Below the pieces are notes generated by a model. The model worked only from the letters and a program-made list of their open reading frames with translations, was not told the DNA's origin and ran no database searches. Of a stretch of DNA of 46,239 nucleotides, positions 24,373 to 42,711 are shown one piece after another. The DNA is from Candidatus Eiseniibacteriota bacterium (GTDB lineage Bacteria; Eisenbacteria; RBG-16-71-46; JACRLI01). How positions within the stretch are numbered: the stretch's first letter is position 1; every line of letters starts with the position of its first letter. Made by a program: the position numbers and the translations under genes. The DNA is taken from assembly GCA_025351485.1 (NCBI GenBank), contig JANXVU010000100.1, positions 1 through 46,239 of the forward strand, given 5' to 3'.

Positions 24373-24391
24373 TGGATCCTCCTGACGGGTC

Positions 24392-24420
24392 AGCTTAGGG
24401 CTTTCCGGGCCGGGGCACAA
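24392..24420 (-). promoter_or_regulatory. Putative promoter of the BMC-H gene
   Basis: On the minus strand TTGTGC (24420-24415), 17 nt and TAAGCT (24397-24392) form a sigma-70-like promoter about 20 nt before the BMC start codon and its AGGAGG site. It is arranged divergently from the promoter at 24452-24480. Confidence 0.5.
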
Positions 24421-24451
24421 GGGACCGGTGCGACTGTCTCGCAGCGGGCAT

Positions 24452-24480
24452 TTGACGCGGCGGCCGCCGGGCCCTATGGT
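24452..24480 (+). promoter_or_regulatory. Putative promoter of the KimA-like pair
   Basis: TTGACG (24452-24457), 17 nt and TATGGT (24475-24480) match the promoter pattern seen elsewhere in the window. Transcription would begin near 24487, only about 17 nt before ATG 24504. This leaves no room for a riboswitch leader, and no Shine-Dalgarno site is visible. Confidence 0.55.
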
Positions 24481-24503
24481 TACGCGATGCCACGGCACGC
24501 GCC

Positions 24504-26468
24504 ATGCCAGACTTAAAAAACGTCCTGCTCGGGCGTCCCCGCGACATCTGGGACCCAAAAATCTTCCACCGGATCTCGCTGGTCGCCTTCCTCGCGTGGG
24601 TCGGCCTGGGAGCAGACGGTCTATCGTCCTCGTCGTACGGTCCCGAACAGGCCTTCCTCGCGCTCGGATCCCACAAGTACCTGTGCGTCTACCTGGCCAT
24701 CATGATGGCGGCCACAGTGTTTATCATCTCCTACGCCTACAGCCGGATCATCGAGGCGTTCCCGAACGGCGGCGGCGGGTACCTGGTTGCCACCAAGCTG
24801 CTGGGGGACTGGGCCGGCCTGACCTCGGGCGCAGCGCTCCTGGTGGACTATGTGCTTACCATTTCCGTGTCCATCGCGAGCGGCGTGGCGGCCATCTGGA
24901 GCCTCCTGCCGCCCCGGATGCACCACATGCAGCTGGTGGTGGACGTCCTGGTGCTGGTGTTGCTGGTGCTGCTCAACCTGCGCGGGGTGAAGGAGTCGGT
25001 GCAGTTCCTGTCGCCGATCTTCTTCCTGTTCCTGATCACCCACGTGATCCTGATCGGCGGCGGGCTCTTCGAGGGCGCCCGGCACGTGCCCGAGCTGCAC
25101 CGGGAGGTGACCCAGGGCACGCGGGCCGATCTGGCGGCCATGGGACTGGTGCCGCTGCTGCTGCTGTTCTTCCGGGCGTATTCGCTGGGCGGCGGAACCT
25201 ACACCGGGATCGAGGCGGTCTCCAACGGGCTTCCGATGATGCGCGAGCCGCGCGTCGAGACCGGCAAGAAGACCATGGTGCTGGTCGCGGTGTCGCTGGC
25301 CTTTACGGCCGGCGGGATCCTGTTGTGCTACCTGTTGCTGAGTGTCTTTCCGCAGCACGGCAAGACCATGAACGCCGCGCTGGCCGAGGCCTTCGTGGCG
25401 GGGCTCCACTTCGGTTCCACCTGGCCGGGCCGGATCTTCGTGATCCTGGTGCTCATCTCCGAGGCCCTGCTGCTCTTCGTGGCCTCCCAGAGCGGCTTCC
25501 TGGCCGGGCCGCGGATCATGGCCAACATGGCGGTGGACTCGTGGTTCCCGCACCGCTTCTCGGCGCTCTCCGAGCGGCTCACCATGCAGAACGGGGTGCT
25601 GCTCATGGGGTTTGCGGCCCTGGCCACGCTGGTCTATACGCGCGGGCGGGTGGAGACCCTGGTGATCATGTACTCCATCAACGTGTTCCTGACCTTTTCC
25701 CTGGCCCAGCTCGGGATGATCCGGTACTGGATGGAGGCGAGGCGGCGCCACGAGCACTGGAAGCGGCACGTGCCCATCCACGTGGTGGGCTTCCTGCTGT
25801 GCGCCGGGATCCTGCTGGTGACCATCTTCGAAAAATTCACCGAGGGCGGATGGGTGACCCTGGCCATCACCGGCCTGCTGGTGCTGTTCTGTTCCCGGGT
25901 CCGGCGGCACTACCGGCAGGTCGCCGGCACCATGGCCGAGCTGGACGAGATCCTGGCCAACATTCCAGGCCACCCCACGGTGGAGCCGCGCGAACTGAAC
26001 CCGTCCGCCCCCACGGCCGTGCTGCTGGTCTCGGGCTACAACGGGCTCGGGATCCACTCCCTGCTGTCGCTGCTCCGCGTGTTTCCCAATCACTTCGCGA
26101 ACGTGGTGTTCGTCGCGGTCGGGGTGTTGGATTCGGCCAACTTCAAGGGCGCCGAGGAGACCGCGGCCCTGAACGCCAAGACGGAAGAGGATCTCAAGAA
26201 GTACGTCGACCTGGCCCGGCGCCTGGGCATGGCGGCCACCATCCGCTTCGCGCTGGACACCGAGGTGGTCTCGGCGGCCGAGAAGCTTTGCCGAGACGTG
26301 CACAAGGAGTTCCCGCGGGCGATCGTGTTCGCGAGCAAGCTGATCTTCCGCCGCGAGACGGCCTTCCAGGGCATGCTCCACAACGAGACCGCGTACGCCA
26401 TCCAGCGTCGGCTGCAGTTCTCGGGCCTCCAGACCATCGTGCTGCCGCTGCGCGTAGGGAGCCTCTAG
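24504..26468 (+). CDS. KimA-like APC-superfamily potassium transporter, copy 1
   Basis: The 654-residue protein has a 12-helix APC-superfamily core (residues 20 to about 470) and a cytoplasmic USP-like C-terminal domain (about 500-654, with LLVSGYNGLGIHSLLSLL and LHNETAYAIQRRLQF). It resembles Bacillus KimA (YdaO) in architecture and in the residues I recall as K+ ligands there: D38 and Y45 (in GADGLSSSSYG), Y116, T119 and S123 (in DYVLTISVS), T234 and E237 (in TYTGIEAVSNG), and Y390. KimA is a high-affinity K+/H+ symporter inhibited by c-di-AMP, so K+ uptake is the best guess. An amino-acid permease is the alternative. It has a promoter immediately upstream and copy 2 lies 18 nt downstream. 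Confidence 0.82.
   Translation: MPDLKNVLLGRPRDIWDPKIFHRISLVAFLAWVGLGADGLSSSSYGPEQAFLALGSHKYLCVYLAIMMAATVFIISYAYSRIIEAFPNGGGGYLVATKLLGDWAGLTSGAALLVDYVLTISVSIASGVAAIWSLLPPRMHHMQLVVDVLVLVLLVLLNLRGVKESVQFLSPIFFLFLITHVILIGGGLFEGARHVPELHREVTQGTRADLAAMGLVPLLLLFFRAYSLGGGTYTGIEAVSNGLPMMREPRVETGKKTMVLVAVSLAFTAGGILLCYLLLSVFPQHGKTMNAALAEAFVAGLHFGSTWPGRIFVILVLISEALLLFVASQSGFLAGPRIMANMAVDSWFPHRFSALSERLTMQNGVLLMGFAALATLVYTRGRVETLVIMYSINVFLTFSLAQLGMIRYWMEARRRHEHWKRHVPIHVVGFLLCAGILLVTIFEKFTEGGWVTLAITGLLVLFCSRVRRHYRQVAGTMAELDEILANIPGHPTVEPRELNPSAPTAVLLVSGYNGLGIHSLLSLLRVFPNHFANVVFVAVGVLDSANFKGAEETAALNAKTEEDLKKYVDLARRLGMAATIRFALDTEVVSAAEKLCRDVHKEFPRAIVFASKLIFRRETAFQGMLHNETAYAIQRRLQFSGLQTIVLPLRVGSL
25197..25277 (+). 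repeat. DNA-level repeat patch A, copy in first KimA-like gene
   Basis: This 81-nt stretch is identical to 27192-27272 at 79 of 81 positions, and both differences are silent. It encodes TYTGIEAVSNGLPMMREP and following residues. A second patch, 25521-25610 against 27516-27605, differs at 5 of 90 positions. The rest of the two genes is clearly more diverged. Confidence 0.85.
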
Positions 26469-26486
26469 CCCGGCCGGGCGCTTTTT

Positions 26487-28460
26487 ATGGGATCCTTCTT
26501 CTCCGACATCAAGAACACCCTGCTGGGCCGCCCGCGGGATATCCGCGACCCTCACATCTTCCACCGGATTTCCCTGGTGGCGGTGCTGGCGTGGGTCGGC
26601 CTGGGCGCCGATGGCCTGTCCTCCTCGTCCTACGGGCCCGAGCAGGCCTACCTGGCCCTGGGCGAGCACCGCCACCTGGCGGTGTTCATCGCCCTGCTCA
26701 TGGTGGCCACGGTGCTGCTCATCTCCTACGCCTACACCCGCATCATCGAAGCCTTCCCGGGCGGCGGGGGAGGCTACCTGGTGGCCAGCAAGCTCCTGGG
26801 CGAGGGGGCGGGGGTCACTTCCGGCTCGGCACTGCTGGTGGACTATGTGCTCACCATCACCACTTCGGTCGCGAGCGGCGTGGACGCGCTGTGGAGCCTG
26901 ATGCCGCCGCACCTGTCCGCGTGGCGCATGCCGGTGGCGATCATGGTCCTGACCGCCCTGGTGGTGCTGAACCTGAGAGGCGTCAAGGAGTCGGTCACCA
27001 TCCTGTCCCCGATCTTCTTCATCTTCCTCGTCGCTCACGCCTTCCTGATCGGCGGGGGAATCTTCCAGGGCCTGGCCCACCCGGCCGCCCGCCACATGGA
27101 CATCGTGGCGCGCACCCACTCGGACCTCAAGTTCATGGGCCTGTTCGCCCTGCTGGCGCTGTTCTTCCGGGCCTACTCGCTGGGAGGCGGCACCTACACC
27201 GGGATCGAGGCGGTCTCCAACGGGCTCCCGATGATGCGCGAACCGCGCGTCGAGACCGGCAAGAAGACCATGCTCTACATGGCCGTCTCGCTGGCGATCA
27301 CCGCGGCCGGGATCATGGTGTGCTACTACCTGCTGGACGTTCACCCGGAGTCGGGCAAGACCCTGAACGCGGTGCTCACGGAGCGCTTCGCAGCCGGTTG
27401 GGGCAGCGGCTTCTCATCCCTCGGACAGCCGTTCCTTGTCGTGGTGCTACTCTCGGAGGCCCTGCTGCTGTTCGTCGCCGCGCAGAGCGGCTTCCTGGAT
27501 GGGCCTCGGGTGATGGCCAACATGGCCGTGGACTCGTGGTTCCCGCACCGCTTCGCGGCGCTCTCGGAGCGCCTGACCATGCAGAACGGGGTGCTGCTCA
27601 TGGGGGGCTCGGCGCTGGCGCTGCTGATCTATTCGCACGGCAGCATCGAGATCCTGGTCACCATGTACTCGATCAACGTGTTCCTGACCTTTTCCCTCTC
27701 CCAGCTGGCCATGGTGCGCTACTGGCTCCAGGCGCGGAAAAGGCGGGAGCACTGGAAGCGCAACATCGCGATCCACGTGGTGGGCCTGGGGCTGTGCGCG
27801 GGCATGCTGGTGGTCACGGTGCTGGAGAAGTTCACGGAGGGCGGCTGGCTGACGCTCCTGATCACCAGCTTGCTCATCGTCGGATGCGTGTTCGTGCGGC
27901 GGCATTACCGGCGGGTGAGCCACAAAATGGCGGAACTGGACGAAATCTTGGCCGCGCTCCCGGGGAAGGTGGAAGGGCCGGCCCCGGAGCTCCGCAAGGA
28001 CGCGCCCACCGCCGCACTGCTGGTCTCGGGATACAACGGGCTTGGGATCCACTCCCTGCTGTGGCTGATGCGGCTCTTCCCGGGCTACTTCAAGAACGTG
28101 GTGTTCGTCTCGGTGGGGGTGCTGGACTCGGCCAACTTCAAGGGGGCCGAAGAGACCGAGGCCCTGCGCCTGGACGTGGGGCAGCAGGGCGCGCGGATGG
28201 CGGATGTGGCCAACCGGCTCGGCCTGGCCGCCACCAGCCGGATCGCGCTCGGGACCGAAGTCGTGGCGGAGGCGGAGAAGATCTGCCTGGAGCTGGCCCG
28301 GGAGTTCCCCAAGACCATCGTTTTTGCCAGCAAGCTCATCTTCCGCAAGGAGAACCTCTTCCAGGGGGTGCTGCACAACGAAACCCCCTATGCCATCCAG
28401 CGGCGGCTGCAGTTCTCGGGGCTCCAGACGGTGATCCTGCCGGTGCGGGTCCGACCGTAG
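26487..28460 (+). CDS. KimA-like APC-superfamily potassium transporter, copy 2
   Basis: The 657-residue paralogue of the preceding gene has the same layout. It has a 12-helix transporter core and a C-terminal cytoplasmic domain (about 505-657, with LLVSGYNGLGIHSLLWLM and LHNETPYAIQRRLQF). The equivalents of the KimA cation-site residues are all kept: D42, Y49, Y120, T123, S127, T238, E241 and Y394. It begins 18 nt after copy 1 with no good ribosome site (the gap ends in a T run), so translation may depend on copy 1. Differences from copy 1 concentrate in the loop around residues 195-215, the external loop near 330-350 and the C-terminal domain. The pair may be two isoforms with different regulation, or a heteromeric transporter, since KimA acts as a dimer. 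Confidence 0.82.
   Translation: MGSFFSDIKNTLLGRPRDIRDPHIFHRISLVAVLAWVGLGADGLSSSSYGPEQAYLALGEHRHLAVFIALLMVATVLLISYAYTRIIEAFPGGGGGYLVASKLLGEGAGVTSGSALLVDYVLTITTSVASGVDALWSLMPPHLSAWRMPVAIMVLTALVVLNLRGVKESVTILSPIFFIFLVAHAFLIGGGIFQGLAHPAARHMDIVARTHSDLKFMGLFALLALFFRAYSLGGGTYTGIEAVSNGLPMMREPRVETGKKTMLYMAVSLAITAAGIMVCYYLLDVHPESGKTLNAVLTERFAAGWGSGFSSLGQPFLVVVLLSEALLLFVAAQSGFLDGPRVMANMAVDSWFPHRFAALSERLTMQNGVLLMGGSALALLIYSHGSIEILVTMYSINVFLTFSLSQLAMVRYWLQARKRREHWKRNIAIHVVGLGLCAGMLVVTVLEKFTEGGWLTLLITSLLIVGCVFVRRHYRRVSHKMAELDEILAALPGKVEGPAPELRKDAPTAALLVSGYNGLGIHSLLWLMRLFPGYFKNVVFVSVGVLDSANFKGAEETEALRLDVGQQGARMADVANRLGLAATSRIALGTEVVAEAEKICLELAREFPKTIVFASKLIFRKENLFQGVLHNETPYAIQRRLQFSGLQTVILPVRVRP
27192..27272 (+). 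repeat. DNA-level repeat patch A, copy in second KimA-like gene
   Basis: Partner of the 81-nt patch at 25197-25277, with two silent differences. It covers codons for the cation-site Thr/Glu pair (T238/E241). Confidence 0.85.
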
Positions 28461-28493
28461 ATTAACCCGAGGCAACGTAAATGGTTACGGCTA

Positions 28494-28523
28494 TTGACAG
28501 TTCCGGGGCGGCTCGCCTACGAT
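28494..28523 (+). promoter_or_regulatory. Putative upstream promoter (P1) of the PstS-TPR-STAS-ExbBD-TonB operon
   Basis: TTGACA (28494-28499), 18 nt and TACGAT (28518-28523) lie about 97 nt before the PstS-like start codon and 34 nt after the second KimA-like gene. It gives an approximately 90-nt leader. Confidence 0.6.
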
Positions 28524-28573
28524 GCCTCTTCCGTTTCCAAGAAGCGCTCCGGGGGTTTCCAGTGGATCGCACG

Positions 28574-28602
28574 TTGACAGGCGCGGCGTGGTCTCGTACC
28601 GT
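28574..28602 (+). promoter_or_regulatory. Putative downstream promoter (P2) of the same operon
   Basis: TTGACA (28574-28579), 17 nt and TACCGT (28597-28602) lie 17 nt before the start codon at 28620. The -35 and -10 hexamers are the same as those at 35784-35812. A transcript from here would be almost leaderless. Confidence 0.6.
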
Positions 28603-28619
28603 CAAAGTATTCTAGAGCC

Positions 28620-29507
28620 ATGCGTTGCCGCCTCTGTGTCTTCCTGGTACCCCTCCTCGCCTTCGCGGGTTGTGGCTCCCCGAAAGGGGGCGGGCCCGCG
28701 GACACGCTGACCGCGGGCAAGTTGAGGTTGGTTGCGGCCGAAACGGCTGTTCCACTGGCCCGCAAAGAATCGGAAGCGTTTGGAAAGCTTTACCCGGGTG
28801 CGACTCTCGAATTGAAGACGAACACGGCGAGGGGCGCCGTCGGCGACCTGTTCGCCGACCGCGCGGACGTGATCCTGATGCCGCGCGAGTTGTCGCCCGA
28901 AGAGGATTCGCTGGCCGCGGCCTACAAGGTTCGGATCCAGGGGTGGCGGGTAGGACTCGAGGCCCTGGCCGTGGTGGTGCACCCCTCCAATCCGGTGCGG
29001 CAGATCGCGTTGGACCAGTTGAGGGAGATCTACACCGGTCGCCTGAAGAGCTGGGACCGGCTCGGCGGATCAGCGGCGCCGGTGCGCACGATCTGGAGCG
29101 AGCCCAACTCGGCCGCCTACCAGCTGGTGCTGGAGCGGGTGCTGGCCGGGGAAAAGCCGGCGGCCCCGGACGCGTGGTCCTTCAGCGACAGCGAAACCGC
29201 CGCCCGGGTGGCCCGCGATCCAAATGCGCTGGGCATCCTCGGGGTGGCCGCCGCGGGTCCAAGTGTCAAGGTGCTTCGGGTAAGCGAGGCGCGGGGGTTT
29301 GCCTACTTCGCGCCGGATGCCGAGAACGTGTGGAACCAGAAGTACCCGCTCAGGCATTACGATGTGCTGATCTACCGAAAACCGGCTCCCCCGCTGGCCG
29401 ACGGATTTGCGACCTACGTGCTCAGCAACGAAGGTCAGAAGGCGGCAAGGGACCTCGGTCTGGTCCCGACCGCCGTGCCGATCAAGATCCACCGCGCGAA
29501 GCCGTGA
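28620..29507 (+). CDS. PstS-like periplasmic substrate-binding lipoprotein
   Basis: The 295-residue protein has a lipoprotein signal (FAGC, Cys18) and a PBP-like-2 fold. It contains GKLRLVAAETAVPLARKESEAF near residue 33, a FADRADVILMPREL segment, IALDQLREIYTGRLKSWDRLGG near 125-146 (a PstS hallmark), FSDSETAARVARDPNALGILG near 185, and YPLRHYDVLIYRKP. The usual phosphate-coordinating GSGT and G-S-G-x-G stretches of PstS are replaced by AETA and NTARGAV, so phosphate may not be the ligand. No pst permease genes are nearby. It is the first gene of an operon encoding TPR, STAS, ExbB, ExbD, ExbD and TonB proteins, behind two promoters. It is probably a sensor or docking subunit of that machine rather than part of an ABC importer. 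Confidence 0.8.
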   Translation: MRCRLCVFLVPLLAFAGCGSPKGGGPADTLTAGKLRLVAAETAVPLARKESEAFGKLYPGATLELKTNTARGAVGDLFADRADVILMPRELSPEEDSLAAAYKVRIQGWRVGLEALAVVVHPSNPVRQIALDQLREIYTGRLKSWDRLGGSAAPVRTIWSEPNSAAYQLVLERVLAGEKPAAPDAWSFSDSETAARVARDPNALGILGVAAAGPSVKVLRVSEARGFAYFAPDAENVWNQKYPLRHYDVLIYRKPAPPLADGFATYVLSNEGQKAARDLGLVPTAVPIKIHRAKP

Positions 29508-29548
29508 GGCCGCGAGGGAAACTCGACAGGAGCCGCAAGGTACCCGAC

Positions 29549-31609
29549 ATGACTCGAATTCAAGAGCGTCATTCGTTCGCCAGGAAGACCCTGCTGCCCG
29601 CCCTTGCCTGCGCCCTGATCGCGGCACTCGCGCTTGCGGGACCGGCCCGCGCCGGCGACAACCTCAAGCAGGGCCGGGCAGCCCTGGAGCGCCACGATAT
29701 CGGAACCGCGCTGGCCCTGCTGCAGCGCGCGGTGGTGGAGGAACCGGGAAACCTGGACGCGCACTCCGCATTTGCGCTGGCCCTGGTCCAGGGGCACCGG
29801 AGCGCGGAGGCCAAGGGAGAAATCGAGGCCTGCTCAAAGATCAACGCCGAGAGCGAAGTGATCCCGTACCTCGAAGGCCGGCTCGCGGAGTCCCAGGAGG
29901 ACTGGGATGGCGCCATCGCAAAATACCGCGCCGCCATTGCCCGCCGCAGCAAGTACGCCGATGCGTCCTATTCCCTGGGCATGGCGCTTCGCCACCAGGG
30001 CAAGTCCCAGGATGGCCTGGCCGAGCTCAACCGGGGCCTGGACTTCGCGCGGGAAAACGACGTGCCGCGGTTTCTGTCCGGGATCGGCCTGGCGCTCATG
30101 GACATGGATTCCCTCTCCGCCGCGGCCGATTCGGCCACCCGCGCCGTGGCGCTCGACCCGGACAACGTGCTCACGCACGTCGCCCTGGGGCAGATCTACC
30201 TGAAGCGCGGCGTTTACTCGCTGGCCAAGATGTCCCTCGACCGCGCCGTGCAGCTGGACACCCTGGACCCGGTGGTTTATTTCCAGCTGGGCAAGGCCAA
30301 CTACTACAGCCAGCAGTACTCGGATGCGCTCCAGTCCTTCAAGACCGCCGCCGCGCTGGACACGCTGTACGCCGATCCGCAGTACTGGATCGGGCACCTG
30401 TACGTGCTGGCCGGCGTGGCCGACCGCGAAAAGTACTCGCTCGCCGCGCCCTTCCTGCGCACCTACACCCGGCTGCGCCCGGGCGATTCCAAGGGCTGGC
30501 TGGACCTGGGCGAGGCGCTCTACCGCAGCCCCGCCAGCACCGAAGACGAATTCAAGGAATCTGCCGCGGCGCTGGATAAGTCCAGCGCGATCAACGGCAA
30601 CGAGTCCAAGGCCTATCTTCTGATGGTCAAGGTCAGCGCCTACAAGCTCAAGGACTTCGACAAGGCCTTCGCGGCTTACAACCGGATGCAGGCGGCCGGC
30701 GCCAAGCTCAGCGCGGACGACATCCTGCTGGTGGCCTCCCTTTACACCTACAAGAGCATGTTCCCGCAGGCCGATTCCGTGATCGCGGAGGCTATCAAGG
30801 CCGACACGACCGCGCCCGACGGCTGGTTCAAGATGGCCGAGAGCAAGTTCTTCCAGCGCGAGTACGCTGCCGCGATTCCTTTCTTGCAAAAGCGCATCGA
30901 CGTGGATTCCACCGGCGAGCGCTCCAAGATCGGCGTGGCTCCGTTCCTGCCGTACTACATGCTGGGCCAGGCCTACAACCAGATCCAGAAGTACGATTCG
31001 TCCACCGTGTTCGTGAAGATGGCGCTGGCCCACGCCGATTCGGCGACCACCAAGCCGGTGGACCTGGCCAAGATGCACCTGGAGCTGGGCACGGCCTACG
31101 CCAAGGGCGATTCGCTGAGCCGGGAGCTGGCCAAGGGCGAGTTCGCCTCGGTCATCGAGGCTGATTCCACGTCGCAGCAGGCCGTGTCGGCCATGTACAA
31201 CATGGGATACACGGATTTCGCCGCCAAGAAGTACCGGGAGTCGGCCGAGATGCTCGAGCGCGCCCAGGGCACGATCGAGCGCAACAGTCCGCCGCTGAAG
31301 CCGCGGCTGGACGTGCTGCTGCTGCTGGCGTCCAGCTATGTCGGCACCAAGGACTACGACCGGGCCCGGGAAGTCGCCAAGAAGGGACTCGCGCTCGATC
31401 CGACCAACAACATCCTTTCAAAGATCGCCGCGCCGCCGGCTCCGGTGAAGAGCAAGCCGGCCGGCACGGGAACGGCCCCGGGCGGAGCTTCCGCACCCGG
31501 CGCTGCCCCGTCCGGCGATGCCTCCTCCGCCAAGGGGAAGGTCGTGGGCAAGAATCCGCCCGCCAGCACGGTTCCGCCGGTGACGACCACGGCGCCAAAG
31601 AAGAAGTAA
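29549..31609 (+). CDS. Large periplasmic TPR protein with disordered Pro/Ala/Lys tail
   Basis: The 686-residue protein has a signal peptide ending at PARA (about residue 36), then roughly a dozen TPR units from residue 38 to about 620. Examples are YADASYSLGMALRHQGKSQD, VLTHVALGQIYLKRGVYSLA and VYFQLGKANYYSQQYSDALQ. A low-complexity tail (about 630-686) is rich in Pro, Ala, Gly and Thr and ends in Lys-Lys-Lys. TPR arrays bind partner proteins, and the tail could thread through peptidoglycan. The true start is ATG 29549 (AAGG nearby); the frame stays open upstream through the PstS-like gene only as a shadow. It is separated from neighbours by 41 and 36 nt. Its position suggests it is a periplasmic partner of ExbBD-TonB, but the role is unknown. 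Confidence 0.75.
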   Translation: MTRIQERHSFARKTLLPALACALIAALALAGPARAGDNLKQGRAALERHDIGTALALLQRAVVEEPGNLDAHSAFALALVQGHRSAEAKGEIEACSKINAESEVIPYLEGRLAESQEDWDGAIAKYRAAIARRSKYADASYSLGMALRHQGKSQDGLAELNRGLDFARENDVPRFLSGIGLALMDMDSLSAAADSATRAVALDPDNVLTHVALGQIYLKRGVYSLAKMSLDRAVQLDTLDPVVYFQLGKANYYSQQYSDALQSFKTAAALDTLYADPQYWIGHLYVLAGVADREKYSLAAPFLRTYTRLRPGDSKGWLDLGEALYRSPASTEDEFKESAAALDKSSAINGNESKAYLLMVKVSAYKLKDFDKAFAAYNRMQAAGAKLSADDILLVASLYTYKSMFPQADSVIAEAIKADTTAPDGWFKMAESKFFQREYAAAIPFLQKRIDVDSTGERSKIGVAPFLPYYMLGQAYNQIQKYDSSTVFVKMALAHADSATTKPVDLAKMHLELGTAYAKGDSLSRELAKGEFASVIEADSTSQQAVSAMYNMGYTDFAAKKYRESAEMLERAQGTIERNSPPLKPRLDVLLLLASSYVGTKDYDRAREVAKKGLALDPTNNILSKIAAPPAPVKSKPAGTGTAPGGASAPGAAPSGDASSAKGKVVGKNPPASTVPPVTTTAPKKK

Positions 31610-31645
31610 ACGAGTCGCACGCAATCCGGGAAGGAGATATAGGAA

Positions 31646-31987
31646 ATGGCCCTGAAGGAAAAGAACGAAGGCGATGTCGTCATCCTGTACCCCAAGGGAT
31701 TTCTCATGGGGGGCGCGGAAACCGACGAGCTCCAGAACCGCGTCAAGGAACTCGAGGAAACCGGCAATCAGAAGCTGATCATCAGCCTGTCCGAGACCTC
31801 CATGATGAACTCGACCGCGATCGGCGTGTTCATCACCGCCCACAAGCACTACTCGGAGCGCGGTGGAAGGCTCAAGCTGTGCAGCGTGGACAAGAAAATC
31901 CAGAACGTGTTCGTGATCACCAAGTTGAGCCTCGTGTTCGACGTGTATGCCAACGAGGCCGAGGCGATCGCCAGCTTTTCCAAGTAG
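31646..31987 (+). CDS. STAS-domain protein (anti-sigma factor antagonist-like)
   Basis: The 113-residue protein is a single STAS domain: DVVILYPKGFLMGGAETDEL opens it, the conserved LIISLSETSMMNSTAIGVF loop spans 44-62, and GGRLKLCSVDKKIQNVFVI follows. In SpoIIAA-type proteins the Ser of the D-S-S-G loop is phosphorylated by a serine kinase. Here the loop reads N55-S56-T57-A58, so S56 or T57 could serve, but the Asp is replaced by Asn. No kinase or phosphatase gene lies in the window. A strong AAGGAG site precedes ATG 31646. It stands between the TPR and ExbB genes, so it may gate the motor or signal its state. Confidence 0.88.
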   Translation: MALKEKNEGDVVILYPKGFLMGGAETDELQNRVKELEETGNQKLIISLSETSMMNSTAIGVFITAHKHYSERGGRLKLCSVDKKIQNVFVITKLSLVFDVYANEAEAIASFSK

Positions 31988-32043
31988 CGACTTTCGGCTG
32001 TCCCCCGGGCCGGAATTCTGAAATAATGACGGGTACCCGGACA

Positions 32044-32059
32044 CCGTCTTTCCGGACGG
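32044..32059 (+). other. Small stem-loop in the 144-nt STAS-exbB gap
   Basis: CCGTC-TTTCCG-GACGG forms a 5-bp stem between the STAS and exbB genes, and a GGGTACCC palindrome lies at 32031-32038. No T tract follows, so this is more likely a transcript-processing or attenuating structure than a terminator. No promoter was found in the gap. Confidence 0.35.
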
Positions 32060-32131
32060 CCTCCTGAACCCTCCAGGTGGAATACAAACACATCTCCATA
32101 CGTCCTGCGTGCAGAGGAGGTCAGTGCTCCA

Positions 32132-32857
32132 ATGAAAAAGTATGCCATGCCGTTGTTGTTCTTCTCGCTTCTGATCGTTTCGATCCTTGTGTACATGTAC
32201 GTCGTGCCGCCCCTGGTTCGTGCCGGCGGCCCGCTCGTGGCCGGACTGATCTTCCTGGCCATGCTCGCCGTTTCGTTCGTCCTGGAGCGACTGTTCACGC
32301 TTCGTCGGGCCCAGGGCACCCAGCCGCTGCCGATCTTCATCACCGGGGTCAAGCGTGAGTTGATGCTGGGCAACGTGGACGCGGCGATGGCGCTGTGCGA
32401 CAAGCAGCGCGGCTCCGCGGCCAACGTGCTCAAGTCGGGCCTTGCCCGTTACCGCCAGTTGATCCGTGAAAACGCTCCCAAGGAGAAGATCGTTCCGGAG
32501 ACCCAGCAGGCCATCCAGGAAGCCAACGCCCTGGAAGTCCCGCTGCTGGAGCGCAACCTGGTCGGTCTGTCCACCATCGCCTCGATCGGCACCATGGTGG
32601 GCTTGCTCGGCACGGTGATCGGAATGATCCGCGCATTCGCGGCCGCCTCGAACGTCGGAGCCGTGGACGCCACCCAGCTGGCCAAGGGAATTTCCGAGGC
32701 GCTCATCAACACCGCCGGCGGAATCCTGATCGCCATCTTCTCGATCGTGCTCTACAACGTGTTCACGACCAAGGTGGACAACTTCTCCTACATGATGGAC
32801 GAAGCGAGCTACGAGACCATCCAGCTGCTCACCTCGAACACCATCGACCAGAAGTAG
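32132..32857 (+). CDS. exbB: MotA/TolQ/ExbB-family proton channel protein
   Basis: This 241-residue inner-membrane protein has an N-terminal helix (residues 5-28), a second at about 32-52, a cytoplasmic loop with LMLGNVDAAMALCDKQRG, and two C-terminal helices. These carry the family signature GLSTIASIGTMVGLLGTVIGMIRAF (helix 3) and the ALINTAGGILIAIFSIVLYN helix, whose Thr and small residues line the ion path. ExbB forms a pentamer around ExbD and couples proton flow to TonB motion. A GAGGAGG site precedes ATG 32132. The exbD genes follow by 18 and 83 nt. TolQ versus ExbB cannot be told from the sequence alone; the downstream TonB favours ExbB. Confidence 0.9.
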   Translation: MKKYAMPLLFFSLLIVSILVYMYVVPPLVRAGGPLVAGLIFLAMLAVSFVLERLFTLRRAQGTQPLPIFITGVKRELMLGNVDAAMALCDKQRGSAANVLKSGLARYRQLIRENAPKEKIVPETQQAIQEANALEVPLLERNLVGLSTIASIGTMVGLLGTVIGMIRAFAAASNVGAVDATQLAKGISEALINTAGGILIAIFSIVLYNVFTTKVDNFSYMMDEASYETIQLLTSNTIDQK

Positions 32858-32875
32858 CCGGGGAGGCGAAGAGCA

Positions 32876-33328
32876 ATGGCAGGGGTCAAGCACAAGAAGC
32901 GCATGGGGATCAAGATGGACATGACCCCTATGGTGGACGTGGCTTTCCTGTTGCTCATCTTCTACATGAGCACCACCGTGTTCAAGCCGCCCGACAAGGA
33001 ACAGATCAGCCTGCCGGAGTCGCACTCGGACCTGCAGGCTCCCGAGAACAACACGATCACGATCAACGTCAACAAGGACTCCGGGGTCAGCATCAAGTAC
33101 AAGGCCAGGGACAGCGCCACCGGCAAGCTGGTGACCGTGGACACCCCGGTGGCCTCGGGCCTGTTGGAGCCGGAGCTGGACAAGGCCCGTCAGTTCGCGC
33201 CCATGGCCTACATCATCGTGCGCATGGACAAGGACGCCAAGTACGGCACTATGTCCGACGTGATGGACGTGATCCAGAAGAGCAAGACGCTCCGGTTCAA
33301 CGTGATGACGGAGATCTCGAAGAGCTAG
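32876..33328 (+). CDS. exbD: ExbD/TolR-family protein, first copy
   Basis: The 150-residue protein has a short Lys-rich cytoplasmic start, one membrane helix (MDMTPMVDVAFLLLIFYM, about residues 14-31) and a periplasmic domain. D21 in TPMVD is the conserved protonatable aspartate of the family. ExbD works inside the ExbB pentamer. The periplasmic part includes PESHSDLQAPENNTITINVN and ends near RFNVMTEISKS. It has a clear GGGGAGGCG site upstream of ATG 32876. Two ExbD genes in a row suggest a heterodimeric ExbD pair, as is common in FCB-group bacteria by recall. Confidence 0.9.
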   Translation: MAGVKHKKRMGIKMDMTPMVDVAFLLLIFYMSTTVFKPPDKEQISLPESHSDLQAPENNTITINVNKDSGVSIKYKARDSATGKLVTVDTPVASGLLEPELDKARQFAPMAYIIVRMDKDAKYGTMSDVMDVIQKSKTLRFNVMTEISKS

Positions 33329-33411
33329 TTGCTTCCGCTCCGGGCGGCCCGGGCGGCATCCCCGCCACGGACCGCGCAGGCGGATGATTTTTTGAAACGA
33401 GGTGATTTGCT

Positions 33412-33927
33412 TTGGGAGCCGTAGACTCTCCAGAACCAAAAAGTAAAGCCAAAGGCGGCAAGCGCAAGCCGCACCGCGTGGGCATTCGAGTGGACATGAC
33501 GCCCATGGTGGACGTGGCATTTCTATTGCTGATCTTTTTCATGGTGACCACGGTGTTCCGCACCCCCAGGGCGATGGAGATCAACCTGCCGCCGGACAAG
33601 GACACCAAGGTCGAGATCGCGCAGTCCAAGGTGCTCACCCTTCGCGCTTCGGCGGACAACAAGCTGTACTGGAGCCTCGGGACTGAAAAGCCCCAGGTTT
33701 CCAATCTGAAGTCCCTGCAGCCGGTGCTGGTGGCCAAGTCCAAGCAGTTCTGGAACAACACCAAGCAGGAGTCCGACCTGAACGTGGTCATCAAGGTGGA
33801 CCGGGAGGCCAGGTTCCACAACCTGGTGGATCTGATCGACGTGCTGAGCCTGGCCAAGATCACGCGCTTTGGATTTGCGCCCTTCACCGACGACGACAAG
33901 AAACAGATTCTCACCGCGGGCGCCTGA
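33412..33927 (+). CDS. exbD: ExbD/TolR-family protein, second copy
   Basis: The 171-residue protein starts at TTG 33412, five bases after a GAGGTGAT site, with no ATG before the conserved helix. A Lys-rich tail of 26 residues precedes the membrane helix RVDMTPMVDVAFLLLIFFM, in which D34 is the conserved proton-carrying aspartate. The periplasmic domain is longer than in copy 1 (NLPPDKDTKVEIAQSKVLTL, then a region near SLAKITRFGFAPF). The membrane motif is nearly the same in both copies while the periplasmic parts differ, which would fit two roles in one complex. The tonB gene follows by 47 nt. Confidence 0.9.
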   Translation: MGAVDSPEPKSKAKGGKRKPHRVGIRVDMTPMVDVAFLLLIFFMVTTVFRTPRAMEINLPPDKDTKVEIAQSKVLTLRASADNKLYWSLGTEKPQVSNLKSLQPVLVAKSKQFWNNTKQESDLNVVIKVDREARFHNLVDLIDVLSLAKITRFGFAPFTDDDKKQILTAGA

Positions 33928-33974
33928 ACCGCAGGCGACCGCCGTCCTAACCCTTGAAGGCAGGTCGAGGCACT

Positions 33975-34724
33975 ATGAGCAGCACAGCGCATCCCGCCGA
34001 ACCCGGGATCGGAACCGGGCAGCGCCCCTACGAGCAGTACGGGGCATCGGAACTCAAGACCGTGTTCCAGAGGTACATGACGCTGGGCGTGGCCCTGTCG
34101 GCCGCGCTCAATACGTTCCTGATCCTGCTGGCGCTGGCGGCGCTCTACGTCAACCAGAAGCTGCACGAGCGCCAGGAGACCCGCGTGCGGGTGGTGCCGT
34201 TCCAGCAGCTCCAGCCGCCTCCGCTCTCCAAGCAGCAGACCGACCAGATCAAGACGCCGGAAAAGGTGGCCCCGCCGTCCGTGGGAATTCCGGTGCCGGT
34301 GCCGGACGCCCAGGCGCCGCAGCAGCAGCAGCTGGCCTCGCTGGAGGACATCAACAAGGCCGCCGGCGGCTCCAACGTGGGCACCGGAAACGACATCGTG
34401 ATCGCCGCCAGGGATGAAGACACTGGTCCGGCGTCCGGCAGCTACGTGTACCGCGATGACGAGCCGGTGCTGGTCAAGGCGGTGGCCCCCAAGTACCCTG
34501 ACCTTGCCCGCTCGAGCGGCATCGAGGGCAAGGTCGTCCTGAACGTCCTGGTCGGCACCAACGGCAAGGTCGAGAAGGTCGAGGTGCAGCAGGGGGTGCC
34601 GGTGCTGAACGACGCGGCCATCGAAGCCGTGAAGCAGTACCTGTTCAAGCCGGCGCTCGCGAACAACAAGCCCGTGGCCGTGTGGGTCGCGGTGCCCATC
34701 TCGTTCAAGCTGAGCGGCAACTAG
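33975..34724 (+). CDS. tonB: Energy transducer TonB, first copy
   Basis: The 249-residue protein has a cytoplasmic start with RPYEQYGASELKTVFQRYM, a membrane helix at about 39-58, a Pro/Gln-rich periplasmic linker, and a C-terminal TonB domain from about 160. The C-terminal domain includes PKYPDLARSSGIEGKVVLNV and QYLFKPALANNKPVAVWV. TonB carries the proton-motive force from ExbBD to outer-membrane receptors. I chose ATG 33975, which follows a GGTCGAGG site; the TTG at 33954 would add 7 residues. It ends the ExbBD operon and is followed by a hairpin. No TonB-dependent receptor is found in the window. Confidence 0.9.
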   Translation: MSSTAHPAEPGIGTGQRPYEQYGASELKTVFQRYMTLGVALSAALNTFLILLALAALYVNQKLHERQETRVRVVPFQQLQPPPLSKQQTDQIKTPEKVAPPSVGIPVPVPDAQAPQQQQLASLEDINKAAGGSNVGTGNDIVIAARDEDTGPASGSYVYRDDEPVLVKAVAPKYPDLARSSGIEGKVVLNVLVGTNGKVEKVEVQQGVPVLNDAAIEAVKQYLFKPALANNKPVAVWVAVPISFKLSGN

Positions 34725-34749
34725 CAGCGCCGGAAGAGATGTTCGGGAA

Positions 34750-34774
34750 GGGACCGGGGGAACGCCCCGGTCCC
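34750..34774. terminator. 10-bp perfect stem-loop between the two tonB genes
   Basis: GGGACCGGGG pairs with CCCCGGTCCC around a 5-nt loop, 25 nt after the first tonB stop. An outer 7-bp pairing (CCGGAAG 34730-34736 with CTTCCGG 34789-34795) could extend it. There is no adjacent T tract, though a run of T occurs at 34810-34815. A terminator or an mRNA-stability element is likely. The remaining gap to 34933 holds no gene, and I found no convincing promoter in it. Confidence 0.5.
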
Positions 34775-34933
34775 GATCCGCAGCCATACTTCCGGGTTTC
34801 GGTCCGATAGTTTTTTCTCACCCCTCCAGCGACGCTGCATCGAATTTGTCCCCTCCGCCGACATCCCCTCCTGCAGGATCCAGTTCCAGCGGTCCATACC
34901 CTTCCGGGACCTCCACGCATGGAGGTGCACGTC

Positions 34934-35707
34934 ATGTCTGCCGCCGCGCTGCTCCACCGTACTCTCCGCGGAACAGCCCCGATACCCTATGCCCGCTACG
35001 GGGCCTTCGAGCTGAAGCATGCCTCCCGCAGGCACCTGGCCTACGGGGTGACTTTGTCCGCGCTGTTCAGCACGCTGGTCCTGATTACAGTGGCGGTGCT
35101 GGTAGCCAGGATGCCGCCGGCGGCACGCCCGCTGATCGAAGTCATCCACATTGTGGACTACCCTGTGCCAGCCCGGCCGACGCCTCCCAAATTCGACCCC
35201 GCCGCTCTGAAGCGCCCCCCGGGTTCGAAGGCGGATCCCGCAGCCGGTGTTGTCATGACCGTCCCGGACTTCCCCGACAAAACTGCCACGGACACTCCGC
35301 CCGACCTGCCGCCCATGACCCTGCCGCCGGATGGGGGAGCGGGCCCCGGGTCGGCCGGCTCGGCGGGCACGGGGCCATCCACCGCGGTTGCCCCGAACGG
35401 AGTTTCGCTCACCAGCGCGGCCGGCACTTGGACAGTGCACGACACCGAACCCGAGCTGCTGGTCGCGCCCCGGCCTTTCTACCCGGAAATCGCCAAGCGG
35501 GCCATGATCGAGGGCAGGGTGAGGTTGTGGCTGCTGGTGGGAAAGGACGGGCGGATCGCCCGGGTGGATGTCCGGGAGGGGGTCACCATGCTTTCCCCGG
35601 CGGCGGTGGAGGCGGCCCGTGGATACATCTTCAAGCCGGCCCTGGCGAACGGCCGCCCGGTGGCAGTCTGGGTGGAGGAGACCTTCGATTTCCGGATCCT
35701 GCCGTAG
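34934..35707 (+). CDS. tonB: Energy transducer TonB, second copy
   Basis: The 257-residue paralogue has the same arrangement: an N-terminal PYARYGAFELKHASRRH motif before a membrane helix (about 38-58), a Pro-rich linker (residues 60-165) and the C-terminal TonB domain. The last includes RPFYPEIAKRAMIEGRVRLWL and GYIFKPALANGRPVAVWVEE. I chose ATG 34934, 7 nt after a GGAGGT site, rather than ATG 34919, which would overlap that site. It lies 209 nt after the first tonB beyond a strong hairpin, so it may be expressed separately. Both TonB proteins share the PYxxYGAxELK motif in front of the helix. There is no dedicated ExbBD set for this copy in the window. Confidence 0.9.
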   Translation: MSAAALLHRTLRGTAPIPYARYGAFELKHASRRHLAYGVTLSALFSTLVLITVAVLVARMPPAARPLIEVIHIVDYPVPARPTPPKFDPAALKRPPGSKADPAAGVVMTVPDFPDKTATDTPPDLPPMTLPPDGGAGPGSAGSAGTGPSTAVAPNGVSLTSAAGTWTVHDTEPELLVAPRPFYPEIAKRAMIEGRVRLWLLVGKDGRIARVDVREGVTMLSPAAVEAARGYIFKPALANGRPVAVWVEETFDFRILP

Positions 35708-35783
35708 ACGGCCAGGGCGTGAAGGTGGGGCATCGTGCGCCTTCTTCGGTGATCGGTCTGAACGGAGCCCCGGCTGGCCCGGT

Positions 35784-35812
35784 TTGACACCTTCCGAAAC
35801 CCGTGATACCGT
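35784..35812 (+). promoter_or_regulatory. Putative promoter of the Yip1-family gene
   Basis: TTGACA (35784-35789), 17 nt and TACCGT (35807-35812) give a start near 35819, about 50 nt before the Yip1-family GTG. The hexamers are the same as in P2 at 28574-28602. Its -10 box covers an in-frame GTG at 35803, which therefore cannot be the gene's start. Confidence 0.6.
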
Positions 35813-35868
35813 GCTGTTTCCATCAAGTTAGCCGGATTTCCTCACCCTTCTTGGAGGAAGGTGCTGCC

Positions 35869-36603
35869 GTGACCACGACCGACGTCCCCGTTGCCCCCGC
35901 TCCGGAAGAAGCCCCGCCGCTCGGCGAACCCGCGCGCATGTTCGGGGTGATCTGGAGCCCCCGGAAGGCCTTCACCGACATCGTGCGGCGGCCGTCCTTC
36001 TGGGCGCCTTTCGTATTGCTGGTGGTGTTCCAGACCGCGGTCTCGCTGGCCATCTACAAGCCGGTGATCATCCCTTCGCAGCTGGCCAAGATGGCCGAGC
36101 AGCCCAATTTCACGGCCGAGAAGCAGGCCATGATCGAAAAGGGCATGGAAAGCCCGGTGGGTTGGGTGATCGCCACGGCGACCGGGTTGCTCGGGATGCC
36201 CATCGCGCTGTTGCTGTGGGCCGGCATGCTTTACTTCGTCTTCAGCCTGCTGATGAGCGGCCGGGCCAATTTCAAGTCGGTGTTCACGGTGGTCTGCTAC
36301 GCATCCATCGTCGGGATGATCGCGGCCCTGGTGAAACTGCCCCTGATGATCGCCCGGCAGGACCTGGAGGTCAGCATCGGGCCGGCCGCCCTCTTGGAGC
36401 GCCCGGACCCGCCGACCTTCCTGTACAGCTTCCTGCAGGGAATGGACGTGCTGGGGATCTGGTCCTGGCTGGTGGTCGCCGTGGGCCTTTCGGTGCTGTA
36501 CCGCAAGCCCCAGGGCTCCACGACCCTGGCCACCATGGCGATCTTTCTGGTGTTTGTCCTGGTCTCGGCCGGGATCCGCTCCATGTTCCACCCGGGATCC
36601 TAG
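35869..36603 (+). CDS. Yip1-family multi-pass membrane protein
   Basis: The 244-residue protein has a Pro/Ala-rich cytoplasmic start and about five membrane helices. The first is at about 45-65 (WAPFVLLVVFQTAVSLAIY), with others near 103-125, 140-160, 200-220 and 225-240. The family signature VIWSPRKAFTDIVRRPSFWAPFV lies at its N-terminus. Bacterial Yip1-domain proteins have no defined function. The start is GTG 35869, with GGAGGAAGG 7 nt upstream. The GTG at 35803 overlaps the promoter's -10 and would add unrelated residues. It stands between the second tonB and the tolC operon, and has its own promoter. Confidence 0.8.
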   Translation: MTTTDVPVAPAPEEAPPLGEPARMFGVIWSPRKAFTDIVRRPSFWAPFVLLVVFQTAVSLAIYKPVIIPSQLAKMAEQPNFTAEKQAMIEKGMESPVGWVIATATGLLGMPIALLLWAGMLYFVFSLLMSGRANFKSVFTVVCYASIVGMIAALVKLPLMIARQDLEVSIGPAALLERPDPPTFLYSFLQGMDVLGIWSWLVVAVGLSVLYRKPQGSTTLATMAIFLVFVLVSAGIRSMFHPGS

Positions 36604-36699
36604 CCAGGATCCGCCGCGTCTTCCATGGGCATGGTTCCCCGGCAAGGGGGGATCGGGCGCCCTGCCGCGTCTTTCTTCGAAACTATTGAAACTCCAACT

Positions 36700-36727
36700 T
36701 TGATCGTCCGTAGAGCGTCAAGATAGT
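36700..36727 (+). promoter_or_regulatory. Possible promoter of the tolC efflux operon (weak)
   Basis: TTGATC (36700-36705), 16 nt and GATAGT (36722-36727) lie 55 nt before the tolC ATG. An alternative -35 is TTGAAA at 36686-36691. Neither is a close match, but the AT-richer 36680-36730 stretch is unusual in this GC-rich window. Confidence 0.3.
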
Positions 36728-36781
36728 CGTCGCCGAAAGGGGGGCCGGGTGGCCCTCCCGCATGGCTCAAGGAGGATGGGA

Positions 36782-38221
36782 ATGATCTTCGGTCATCGTG
36801 AAATCCGCGGGGCACTTTGCCTGGTGGCGCTGGGAACGCTGGCTGCCGCGGGCGCTGCGCGCGCGGAACTGTCGCGCCTGACGGTGGATGAGGCGGTGCG
36901 GCTGGCGCTGCGCGACAACACCACCGTGTACTCGGCCATGAAGCAGGTGGAGCAGGCGGAGGGGGCTTTCCAGCAGGCCCGCTCCAGCATCCTGCCCCAG
37001 CTTTCCGCCACCGGCGACCTGGCGCACAGCTTCCAGGGCGAACAGAAGTCCACCACCCGGCTGGGAGGGTCTGTCCCCAGCAGCCGGTCCAACTCCCACT
37101 CGGGAGGACTCAGCCTGAGCCAGGAGGTCCTGAACCTGCAGTCGTGGAACCTGGTCCGGGAGTCGGACCTGTCCCTGGACGCCATCCGGCACGGCGAGAT
37201 CAACACCCGCCTGGTCGTCGCCCTGGCCACCAAGCAGCAGTTCTACGCCCTGGTCCGGGCCAAGCAGCTCGCGGACGTGGACGCCGATGCCGTCAAGCGC
37301 GACTCGTCGGTCCTGGCCCTGACGCAGGGGCTGTTCGAGGTGGGTTCGGTGCCCCGCACCGACCTGCTCAAGGCGCGCACCCAGTCGGCGCAGTCCACGC
37401 TGGCCCTGATCACCGGGCGCCACTCGGTGGACATCGAGCGCCTGCGGCTGGCCAGCCTGCTGGGACTCCCGGACGACCAGGGACTGGACGTGGAGGACAA
37501 GCTGGCGGACGACATCGCGCTGCCGGACTCCTCCAGCCTGCTGGACACGGCCTTGAAGAACCGCCCCGACCTGCGCCAGCTGGAATCCCAGATCGAGGCC
37601 TCCGACGCGGGCGTCTCCGCGGCCAGGGCGTCGCGCTACCCGACCATCGGCGCCCAGGTCAACTTGCAGAAGAACTTCAACAGCACCACCCAGGACTCGT
37701 TCACGTCGATCAACAACACGAGCTATCTCTCGGGCGGAAACGTGAATCTGCAGACCGGGGACCTGAATTTCCGGTACCGCGACACCACGGTGGTTTCGTT
37801 TTCTCCGGAGCGCACGTACGAAAGCCGGCCGTTCAGCTGGCAGGCTGCGGCGCGCCTGAGCCTGCCGATCTTTGACGGGCTGAACGCGCACGGCCGCATC
37901 CAGCAGCGCTCGGCCGAGGCCGACATCCAGCGCCGCAATCTGCGCCAGAAGCGCACCGACGTGGCCCTGGAAGTCCGGCAGGCATGGCTTGGGCTTCAGG
38001 AGGCCAGGCAAAGGACCCGCGTGGCGAACGATGAGATCGCCTACGCCACCGAAAGTTACGAACTCAACAAGGAAAAGTATCGGCTGGGTTCCTCCACGCT
38101 GCTCGACCTCACCACGGCGGAGGCGGAACTCACCCGCAGCCGCTCGGATGTGGTGGATGCGGCCGTGGGGCTCCAACTTGCCAGGGCGCAGCTGGACCGC
38201 GCCCTCGGCCTGAACCCGTAG
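36782..38221 (+). CDS. tolC: TolC-family outer-membrane efflux channel
   Basis: The 479-residue protein has a signal peptide (cleavage after AARA, about residue 26). Two outer-membrane-factor repeats follow, with LSRLTVDEAVRLALRDNTTV at the start and long heptad-rich helices. A second-half marker is SLLDTALKNRPDLRQLESQIEASDAGVSAARASRYPTIG near 255-293. TolC proteins form trimers through the outer membrane and periplasm. Of three possible starts, ATG 36782 lies 6 nt after AAGGAGG (36769-36775); ATG 36776 is adjacent to that site and GTG 36749 precedes it. Next come the periplasmic adaptor and ABC genes, so this is the exit duct of a tripartite exporter. Confidence 0.92.
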   Translation: MIFGHREIRGALCLVALGTLAAAGAARAELSRLTVDEAVRLALRDNTTVYSAMKQVEQAEGAFQQARSSILPQLSATGDLAHSFQGEQKSTTRLGGSVPSSRSNSHSGGLSLSQEVLNLQSWNLVRESDLSLDAIRHGEINTRLVVALATKQQFYALVRAKQLADVDADAVKRDSSVLALTQGLFEVGSVPRTDLLKARTQSAQSTLALITGRHSVDIERLRLASLLGLPDDQGLDVEDKLADDIALPDSSSLLDTALKNRPDLRQLESQIEASDAGVSAARASRYPTIGAQVNLQKNFNSTTQDSFTSINNTSYLSGGNVNLQTGDLNFRYRDTTVVSFSPERTYESRPFSWQAAARLSLPIFDGLNAHGRIQQRSAEADIQRRNLRQKRTDVALEVRQAWLGLQEARQRTRVANDEIAYATESYELNKEKYRLGSSTLLDLTTAEAELTRSRSDVVDAAVGLQLARAQLDRALGLNP

Positions 38222-38251: not shown

Positions 38252-39544
38252 ATGAACCGGAAGAAATGGATATTCATTGGCCTGGGAGTGGTGCTCGTGG
38301 CGATTTTCGCCATGGCGGCCCTCAAGCAGCAGCAGGGCAAGGTGACCTCGGTGGAACTCGCCAAGGCCACCCGCGAGGACGTGGTCTCGCACGTCAAGGC
38401 GCCCGGCAAGATCGAGCCCTTCACCCTGGTAAAGATGTCCGCGACGCTTCCCGGCCGCGTGACCGAACTGAACGTCAAGGAAGGCCAGCGGGTGCGCCGC
38501 GGGCAGCTGTTGCTGCAACTCGACCCGACGCAGTACCAGGCGGACCTCCAGCGGGCCCGGGCGGCCCTGGCCACGGCCGAGTCGCGCATGCGCCAGGCCA
38601 AGTTCAACCAGGACCGGGCCGAGCAGACCCTGGAACGCAGGATGCAGCTGGCCAAGAGAAATCTGGTCTCCCAGGACGAAGTCGAGCAGGTCACCACCTC
38701 GGCCAACGTGGCGCGTTCGGAATTCCAGGCCAGCCTGCACTCCGTGAGCGAGGCCCGGGCGTCCCTGGAAGCGTCCCAGGACAACCTGAACAAGGTCACC
38801 TTCGTGGCCCCGTTCGATGGGCTGGTGTCCCAGTTGAACGTGGAAAAGGGTGAAAACGTCATCACCGGGACCATGAACAACCCCGGCACGCAGATCCTGT
38901 CGGTGGCCGACACCAGCCGCATGATCGTCCGCGCCAACGTGGACGAAACCGACGTGGTGGACGTCAAGGTGGGGCAGACGGCGCAGATCAAGGTGGACGC
39001 CTGGCCGGATTCCACGTTCCGGGCGGAAGTGATCGAAGTGGGCAACACCGCCAAGAGCGCCGCGGAGACCGGGACCCAGCAGAGCAACTTCGAGGTGAAG
39101 GTGGTGTTCCTCGATCACGTCCCCAACATCCGGCCGGGCATGACCGCCGACGTGGACATCCAGACCCACATCCACAAGGCCTCCCTGGCGGTGCCCATCC
39201 AGAGCGTGGTGGTCCGCACCCAGCGCGAACTCGACGATGCCCGAAAGATGAAGGCCGGCTCCAAGTCCAAGCACGACACGGCCAGCGCCGCGGAGAACGA
39301 GACCGAGGTCCAGAAGAAGGCCAAGGAAAAGGAGATCACCGGCGTGTTCCTGGTCCGCAAGGGCGTGGCGACGTTCCTGCCGGTACGGCCCGGTATTTCC
39401 AGTGACTTGAGCACCGAGATCGAAGCCGTGATGCAGCCTGGCGACCAGATCGTGAGCGGTCCCTACAAGGAACTCCGGGGTCTCAAGGACGGCGACAAGG
39501 TCAAGAAGCTCGAAGTCAAAAAGGGCGGCGAAAAGAAAGAGTAG
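38252..39544 (+). CDS. macA: Efflux periplasmic adaptor (HlyD/MacA family)
   Basis: The 430-residue membrane-fusion protein has an N-terminal anchor helix (residues 5-24) and a lipoyl/biotinyl-type domain ([23 protein letters not shown], about 70-92). It has an alpha-hairpin of coiled coil (about 95-185), the second lipoyl half ([22 protein letters not shown]), a beta-barrel domain, and a membrane-proximal domain. It bridges TolC with the ABC transporter. A charged insertion at about 330-370, rich in Lys, Glu and Ser, lies just before [20 protein letters not shown] and is not typical of E. coli MacA. It starts at ATG 38252 after GGGAG and is 4 nt from the ATPase gene. Confidence 0.9.

Positions 39545-41457: not shown

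Positions 41458-42711
<1,254 letters not shown>

Follow-up and report, generated by a model that had tools for sequence, protein, structure and literature searches.

An ExbB-ExbD-ExbD-TonB motor cluster with PstS-like, TPR and STAS genes in Candidatus Eisenbacteria as the probable main Ton energiser of the cell

What does an ExbB-ExbD-ExbD-TonB motor energise when its genes follow those of a PstS-like lipoprotein, a periplasmic tetratricopeptide repeat (TPR) protein, and a STAS protein, and do these three proteins work with it? The question is raised by a 46,239-nucleotide contig, JANXVU010000100.1 (the window), from a genome of 3.44 Mb (98.6% complete) that belongs to the phylum Candidatus Eisenbacteria. 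Nutrition in a large share of Gram-negative bacteria depends on TonB motors, whose partners are little known in the Fibrobacteres–Chlorobi–Bacteroidetes (FCB) group, including gut Bacteroides. The cluster probably encodes the main Ton energiser of the cell together with a set of accessory proteins, with nutrient import across the outer membrane as the most likely process that the motor drives.

The seven genes were all located on the + strand, with inter-gene gaps of 41, 36, 144, 18, 83, and 26 nt, and every one of the seven proteins had a Pfam match above the cut-off. Coordinates, strand, gaps, and domains agreed with a first-pass annotation of the window, which had also correctly placed the protonatable Asp residues of the two ExbD proteins at D21 and D34. 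The genes are as follows.

28620–29507, + strand: PstS-like lipoprotein with degenerate phosphate loops (PF12849, 98.7 bits)
29549–31609, + strand: periplasmic TPR superhelix protein (Pfam; predicted structure)
31646–31987, + strand: SpoIIAA-like STAS protein; N55-S56 and G60 conserved (PF01740)
32132–32857, + strand: ExbB/TolQ-type proton channel subunit (PF01618, 99.2 bits)
32876–33328, + strand: ExbD, first copy, with Asp21 (PF02472)
33412–33927, + strand: ExbD, second copy, with Asp34 (PF02472)
33954–34724, + strand: TonB, with a possible alternative start ATG at 33975 (PF03544, 76.3 bits)

The ExbB-type channel, ExbD with the membrane Asp, and TonB with the TonB_C domain were thus all encoded together. 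The cluster was the sole complete ExbB-ExbD-TonB set found in the genome, because the remaining ExbB match belonged to a lone exbB-exbD pair on contig C138 and the tolA-tolB-pal-cpoB genes were located on a separate contig (C45), away from the cluster. Nine TonB-dependent receptors were encoded in the host genome, and such receptors were present in 27/27 genomes searched, their number varying among relatives. The remark in the first-pass annotation that no TonB receptor lies nearby was correct for the locus and misleading as an argument, since the nine receptors are encoded elsewhere. The motor proteins did not reach the curated NCBIfam equivalog cut-offs for ExbB (62 bits against 206) and ExbD (~31 against 153), which label characterised subfamilies and are not required for the mechanism. 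Therefore, the Ton-type assignment depends on the TonB domain and the genome context. No TtpC or TtpB was identified among the cluster genes.

The cluster was well conserved in relatives. ExbB was detected at E < 1e-60 in 24 of 28, and the STAS gene, often in two copies, immediately preceded it in 22 of those 24. The order (PstS-)TPR-STAS-ExbB-ExbD-ExbD-TonB was retained in relatives with a long enough contig, at ~60% ExbB identity. A scan of named genomes gave 80 loci, with titles of Bacteroidetes, Ignavibacteriae, KSB1, Kryptoniota, Eisenbacteria, Chlorobi relatives, and one Beijerinckiaceae bin, in which the neighbours of the locus look like those of Bacteroidota. Flanks of 6 kb on each side were available for 54 loci, and PstS-like, TPR, and STAS genes were found nearby on the same strand in 40, 36, and 21 of these, respectively. 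The usual order across the named FCB loci was (STAS)-ExbB-ExbD-ExbD-TonB-PstS-TPR, and several Bacteroidales loci had the order PstS-TPR-ExbB-ExbD-ExbD-TonB. Of 70 evenly sampled genomes of Bacteroidota (the phylum of L110), 39 had this ExbB, and a PstS-like gene was located within 2.8 kb on the same strand in 18 of the 39, against ~0.1 expected by a rough estimate. The pairing of the motor with PstS-like and TPR proteins in Bacteroidetes, which the first-pass annotation had put forward and proposed to check across FCB genomes, proved real and FCB-wide by gene-neighbourhood comparison, the neighbourhood being kept in Bacteroidetes, Ignavibacteriae, KSB1, and Kryptoniota loci. The linkage of PstS and TPR genes with the motor is real and old but not universal, and the motor occurred without it in a set of small genomes (2–3 Mb, perhaps Chlorobi) and in Chitinophagales loci. 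No description of the accessory set as a unit was found in the open-access literature; subscription papers and preprints were outside this search, so one may exist there.

Two further gene associations were observed at these loci. A HAMP histidine kinase and an NtrC-type response regulator were encoded as a pair directly upstream of (STAS-)ExbB in L057, L070, L086, and about 20 others. Control of the Ignavibacteria-type loci by sigma-54 through this adjacent pair was rejected: a consensus site was present in just 3/20 upstream gaps (0.06 expected), which is suggestive and not general. A pyrophosphatase gene followed the TPR gene in L059–L067 and other loci, of the membrane-bound HppA type in 15 loci and of the soluble type in 12. 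The genes were identified by sequence inspection, and the two types are unrelated enzymes that catalyse one reaction and occupy an equivalent place.

In the proposed mechanism, ExbB and the two ExbD proteins would form a proton-driven motor, and one or both of the TonB proteins (a second tonB gene lies downstream) would pass force to the TonB-dependent receptors encoded elsewhere. The TPR protein may be a periplasmic scaffold that brings TonB and receptors together, and the PstS-like lipoprotein may be a structural part or may sense another ligand. On the cytoplasmic side, the STAS protein would modulate the assembly or activity of ExbB, probably via its conserved serine. We infer each of these contacts between an accessory protein and the motor. 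Receptor-dependent uptake would find genetic support, by analogy, in a syntenic operon of Riemerella anatipestifer, in which a phosphate-type substrate-binding protein is encoded after exbB2-exbD-exbD-tonB2 on the same strand and tonB2 is required for hemin to be taken up normally (PMC4446302). No support emerged for the peptidoglycan or lipid cargo suggested earlier; the Riemerella operon acts in the uptake of hemin and iron (PMC4446302), and Tol-Pal has its own genes elsewhere. The earlier denial of any known role of the remaining genes in TonB energisation was too strong, because iron transport through the TonB2 system of Vibrio vulnificus cannot do without the TPR protein TtpD2 (PMC6957404). 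Hemin or iron uptake and an essential TPR partner may thus be carried over to the cluster from the literature on syntenic or analogous systems.

The TPR protein of the window was predicted to form a long superhelix with a disordered C-terminal tail, and a signal peptide was judged by inspection. A fold search with the model gave generic superhelices only. The TPR proteins of five scanned Bacteroidales loci carried a CarboxypepD_reg domain at the C-terminal end. SusC-type receptors carry this domain at their N-terminus, and it was present in 4/8 receptors examined of the host genome. A role of this domain in receptor–TonB contact is cited in PMC12204202. Its presence on Bacteroidales TPR proteins gives a concrete docking hypothesis that would join scaffold, TonB, and receptors. 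The distances of TPR and ExbB proteins were correlated (0.81), which shared ancestry alone could produce.

The PstS-like protein was modelled by AlphaFold with a predicted local distance difference test score of 90. The best fold match in the PDB was the phosphate-bound structure 4gd5, and a TM-score of 0.91 (target length) confirmed the PstS-type periplasmic binding protein fold. The lipobox Cys was invariant in a 24-row alignment, and the match to TIGR02136 (97 bits) was below the cut-off of 206.6. The phosphate-contact residues were chosen from the contacts of E. coli PstS and from the alignment with 4gd5, rather than from the ligand in 4gd5. By this alignment, loop 1 was AETA, with loss of the Ser/Thr residues and a Glu at the Thr position that was found in 47/70 family members. 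Loop 2 was TAR in place of GSS, and loop 4 was S..NSAA in place of R..GSGT, so that Arg, Gly, and Thr were lost. Residues Arg89 and Ser164, both present in the window protein, were the sole phosphate contacts mostly kept. The predicted fold is kept, and most of the phosphate contacts so defined are lost. No PstC or PstA permease was found among the neighbouring genes scanned, in agreement with the first-pass annotation. Phosphate uptake was rejected because the contacts were lost and the permease was missing.

The STAS gene was located directly 5′ of the ExbB gene in 38/38 loci that carry STAS, including phyla with a different gene order, so its earlier description as an extra element did not hold. 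A tandem duplication was present in a sister family (L035–L042, L044, L053, L054), and the window had a single copy. Residues N55, S56, and G60 were invariant in 54/54 sequences, and the phosphorylatable serine of the loop was thus present throughout. The serine equivalent to S56 is the residue phosphorylated in SpoIIAA. The nearest solved structures were anti-sigma factor antagonists of the SpoIIAA type, and the candidate role of an MlaB-type subunit was rejected, with no MlaB among the solved-structure matches. No anti-sigma kinase or sigma gene was adjacent to STAS in the window cluster, and RsbW-type HATPase_c_2 kinase domains were encoded elsewhere in the host genome. A Ton motor with a cytoplasmic phospho-switch is a possible but rather unlikely arrangement, in which an RsbW-type kinase would phosphorylate the invariant serine and thereby turn ExbB-ExbD on or off, with the PstS-like lipoprotein and a small membrane protein relaying the status of the envelope. 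We know of no earlier cytoplasmic regulator of a TonB motor. If such a switch exists, it would be the first known, with an accessory set of FCB-wide age.

The small membrane protein is a new family in this analysis. In most FCB loci, an unannotated protein of 70–80 residues (~75) was encoded directly before the PstS-like gene or slightly overlapping it. Its sequence has one or two stretches of strong hydrophobicity, the second lying near a conserved Arg. The named-genome scan supplied 58 of the 59 loci in which it was found (for example, L055 12475–12690), and the protein had no Pfam or NCBIfam match above the cut-off and no PDB match. The gene was absent from the host genome and nearly all of its phylum, and present in L073 and L050; it was therefore probably lost in the lineage of the window. 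The accessories that travel with the motor across phyla, among them the small membrane protein and the STAS protein whose serine is invariant, make up a short list of testable partners.

Several points weigh against the assignment of the cluster as a Ton energiser with accessory proteins. TolQ/TolR models outscored ExbB/ExbD models for the motor proteins, all below the cut-off (NCBIfam), and no receptor gene adjoined the cluster. Among sampled genomes that encode this ExbB, about half had no adjacent PstS-like gene; hence the accessories are not obligatory neighbours. The TPR protein of the window had no CarboxypepD match in Pfam, and the Riemerella operon was matched to the cluster by published gene order, not by sequence.

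The same gaps in linkage bear on a reading in which the genes are neighbours by ancestral order only. Here the machine would be ExbB-ExbD-ExbD-TonB alone, and the PstS-like and TPR proteins would serve an unrelated purpose, for example the sensing of phosphate or pyrophosphate. The loci that carry the motor without PstS and TPR, Chitinophagales among them, are consistent with this, as are the PstS to ExbB distance correlation of just 0.50 and the pyrophosphatase genes after TPR in many Ignavibacteria-type loci. However, in several phyla the PstS/TPR pair stays linked to the motor, whether before or after it, the phosphate contacts of the PstS-like family are degenerate, and the Bacteroidales TPR proteins carry a receptor-type domain. 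We regard ancestral order alone as improbable.

The surroundings of the cluster raise a further alternative. The first-pass annotation had ended the unit at 34724, but same-strand genes continue past a hairpin, and its two promoters at the front were reduced to a single sigma-70-like site in 28000–37000. With one site seen against 0.9 expected by chance, the two promoters are no evidence. The features around the cluster are as follows.

28494–28523, + strand: sigma-70-like site TTGACA-18-TACGAT before the cluster (weak)
34749–34773, + strand: GC-rich hairpin between both tonB genes, possible terminator or attenuator (z-score -2.5 for 34722–34830)
34919–35707, + strand: second TonB (PF03544, 55.3 bits)
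35803–36603, + strand: Yip1/YknW-type membrane protein (PF04893; NF052650 below cut-off)
36749–38221, + strand: TolC-type outer-membrane efflux protein (PF02321)
38252–39544, + strand: HlyD/MacA-type membrane-fusion protein (PF16576)
39549–40244, + strand: MacB-type ATP-binding cassette (ABC) ATPase (PF00005)
40241–41455, + strand: MacB-type permease (PF12704 and PF02687)
open reading frame ending at 42711, + strand: second MacB-type permease (open reading frame list)

Upstream of the cluster, a BMC-domain microcompartment shell protein gene was located at 24103–24558 on the - strand, with no second shell gene among the scanned neighbours, and two similar amino-acid/potassium permease-like genes (654 and 657 residues) lay in tandem at 24504–28460.

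A motor that mainly powers or regulates the downstream MacAB-TolC-type exporter would account for the block of Yip1, TolC, fusion protein, ABC, and FtsX that follows it in most class relatives with enough contig. The block without Yip1 follows even motors of another ExbB subfamily that lack PstS, TPR, and STAS (L051, L052). In other FCB phyla, however, these motor genes occur without the exporter, and the hairpin and 194 nt part the first tonB from the second and the exporter side in the window. MacAB-type exporters are driven by ATP, which also counts against a motor for export, and such a role is very unlikely. An envelope-stability machine in place of Tol-Pal, in which the TPR protein would correspond to CpoB and the PstS-like lipoprotein would be an outer-membrane tether, is also very unlikely: ExbB and both ExbD are closer to TolQ/TolR models, and to TolQ structures, and recognisable Tol-Pal is missing from Bacteroidetes according to PMC12204202, but replacement was rejected on account of the host's own tolA-tolB-pal-cpoB genes, found along with an exbB-exbD pair elsewhere, a TolB_N match occurs in 8/27 genomes, no Pal, TolB, or OmpA-type domain is encoded in the cluster or beside the motor, and the TonB_C domain is above the Pfam cut-off.

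As a Ton energiser with accessory proteins, the cluster was compared with known systems. Its STAS protein shares its fold and the phosphorylation-site serine with the anti-anti-sigma factors SpoIIAA and RsbV, which were the best solved-structure matches, but the Asp before the serine is replaced by an invariant Asn, and the gene is always beside exbB, not beside a sigma/anti-sigma pair. In PVC-group loci, which encode TolQ-TolR-TolR-TPR-vWA force transducers (PMC12204202), a TPR gene also adjoins a motor that contains a pair of distinct TolR-like proteins, whereas the transducer carries a vWA domain instead of TonB_C. The TonB2 system of V. vulnificus likewise encodes a TPR protein with the Ton motor, the TPR proteins being likened by their repeats only; TtpC2 and TtpB2 belong to that system, for which neither a PstS-like nor a STAS protein is described. 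The BT2664–BT2668 genes of B. thetaiotaomicron, which respond together to iron (PMC10434189), share the substrate-binding protein, ExbD, and ExbB genes with the cluster, but no STAS is reported and the set is known from the iron response alone. The TonB2 operon of Riemerella has the ExbB-ExbD-ExbD-TonB order of the cluster and likewise a PstS-type gene on the same strand, whereas in the window the PstS-like and TPR genes precede the motor, and STAS and a second tonB are added.

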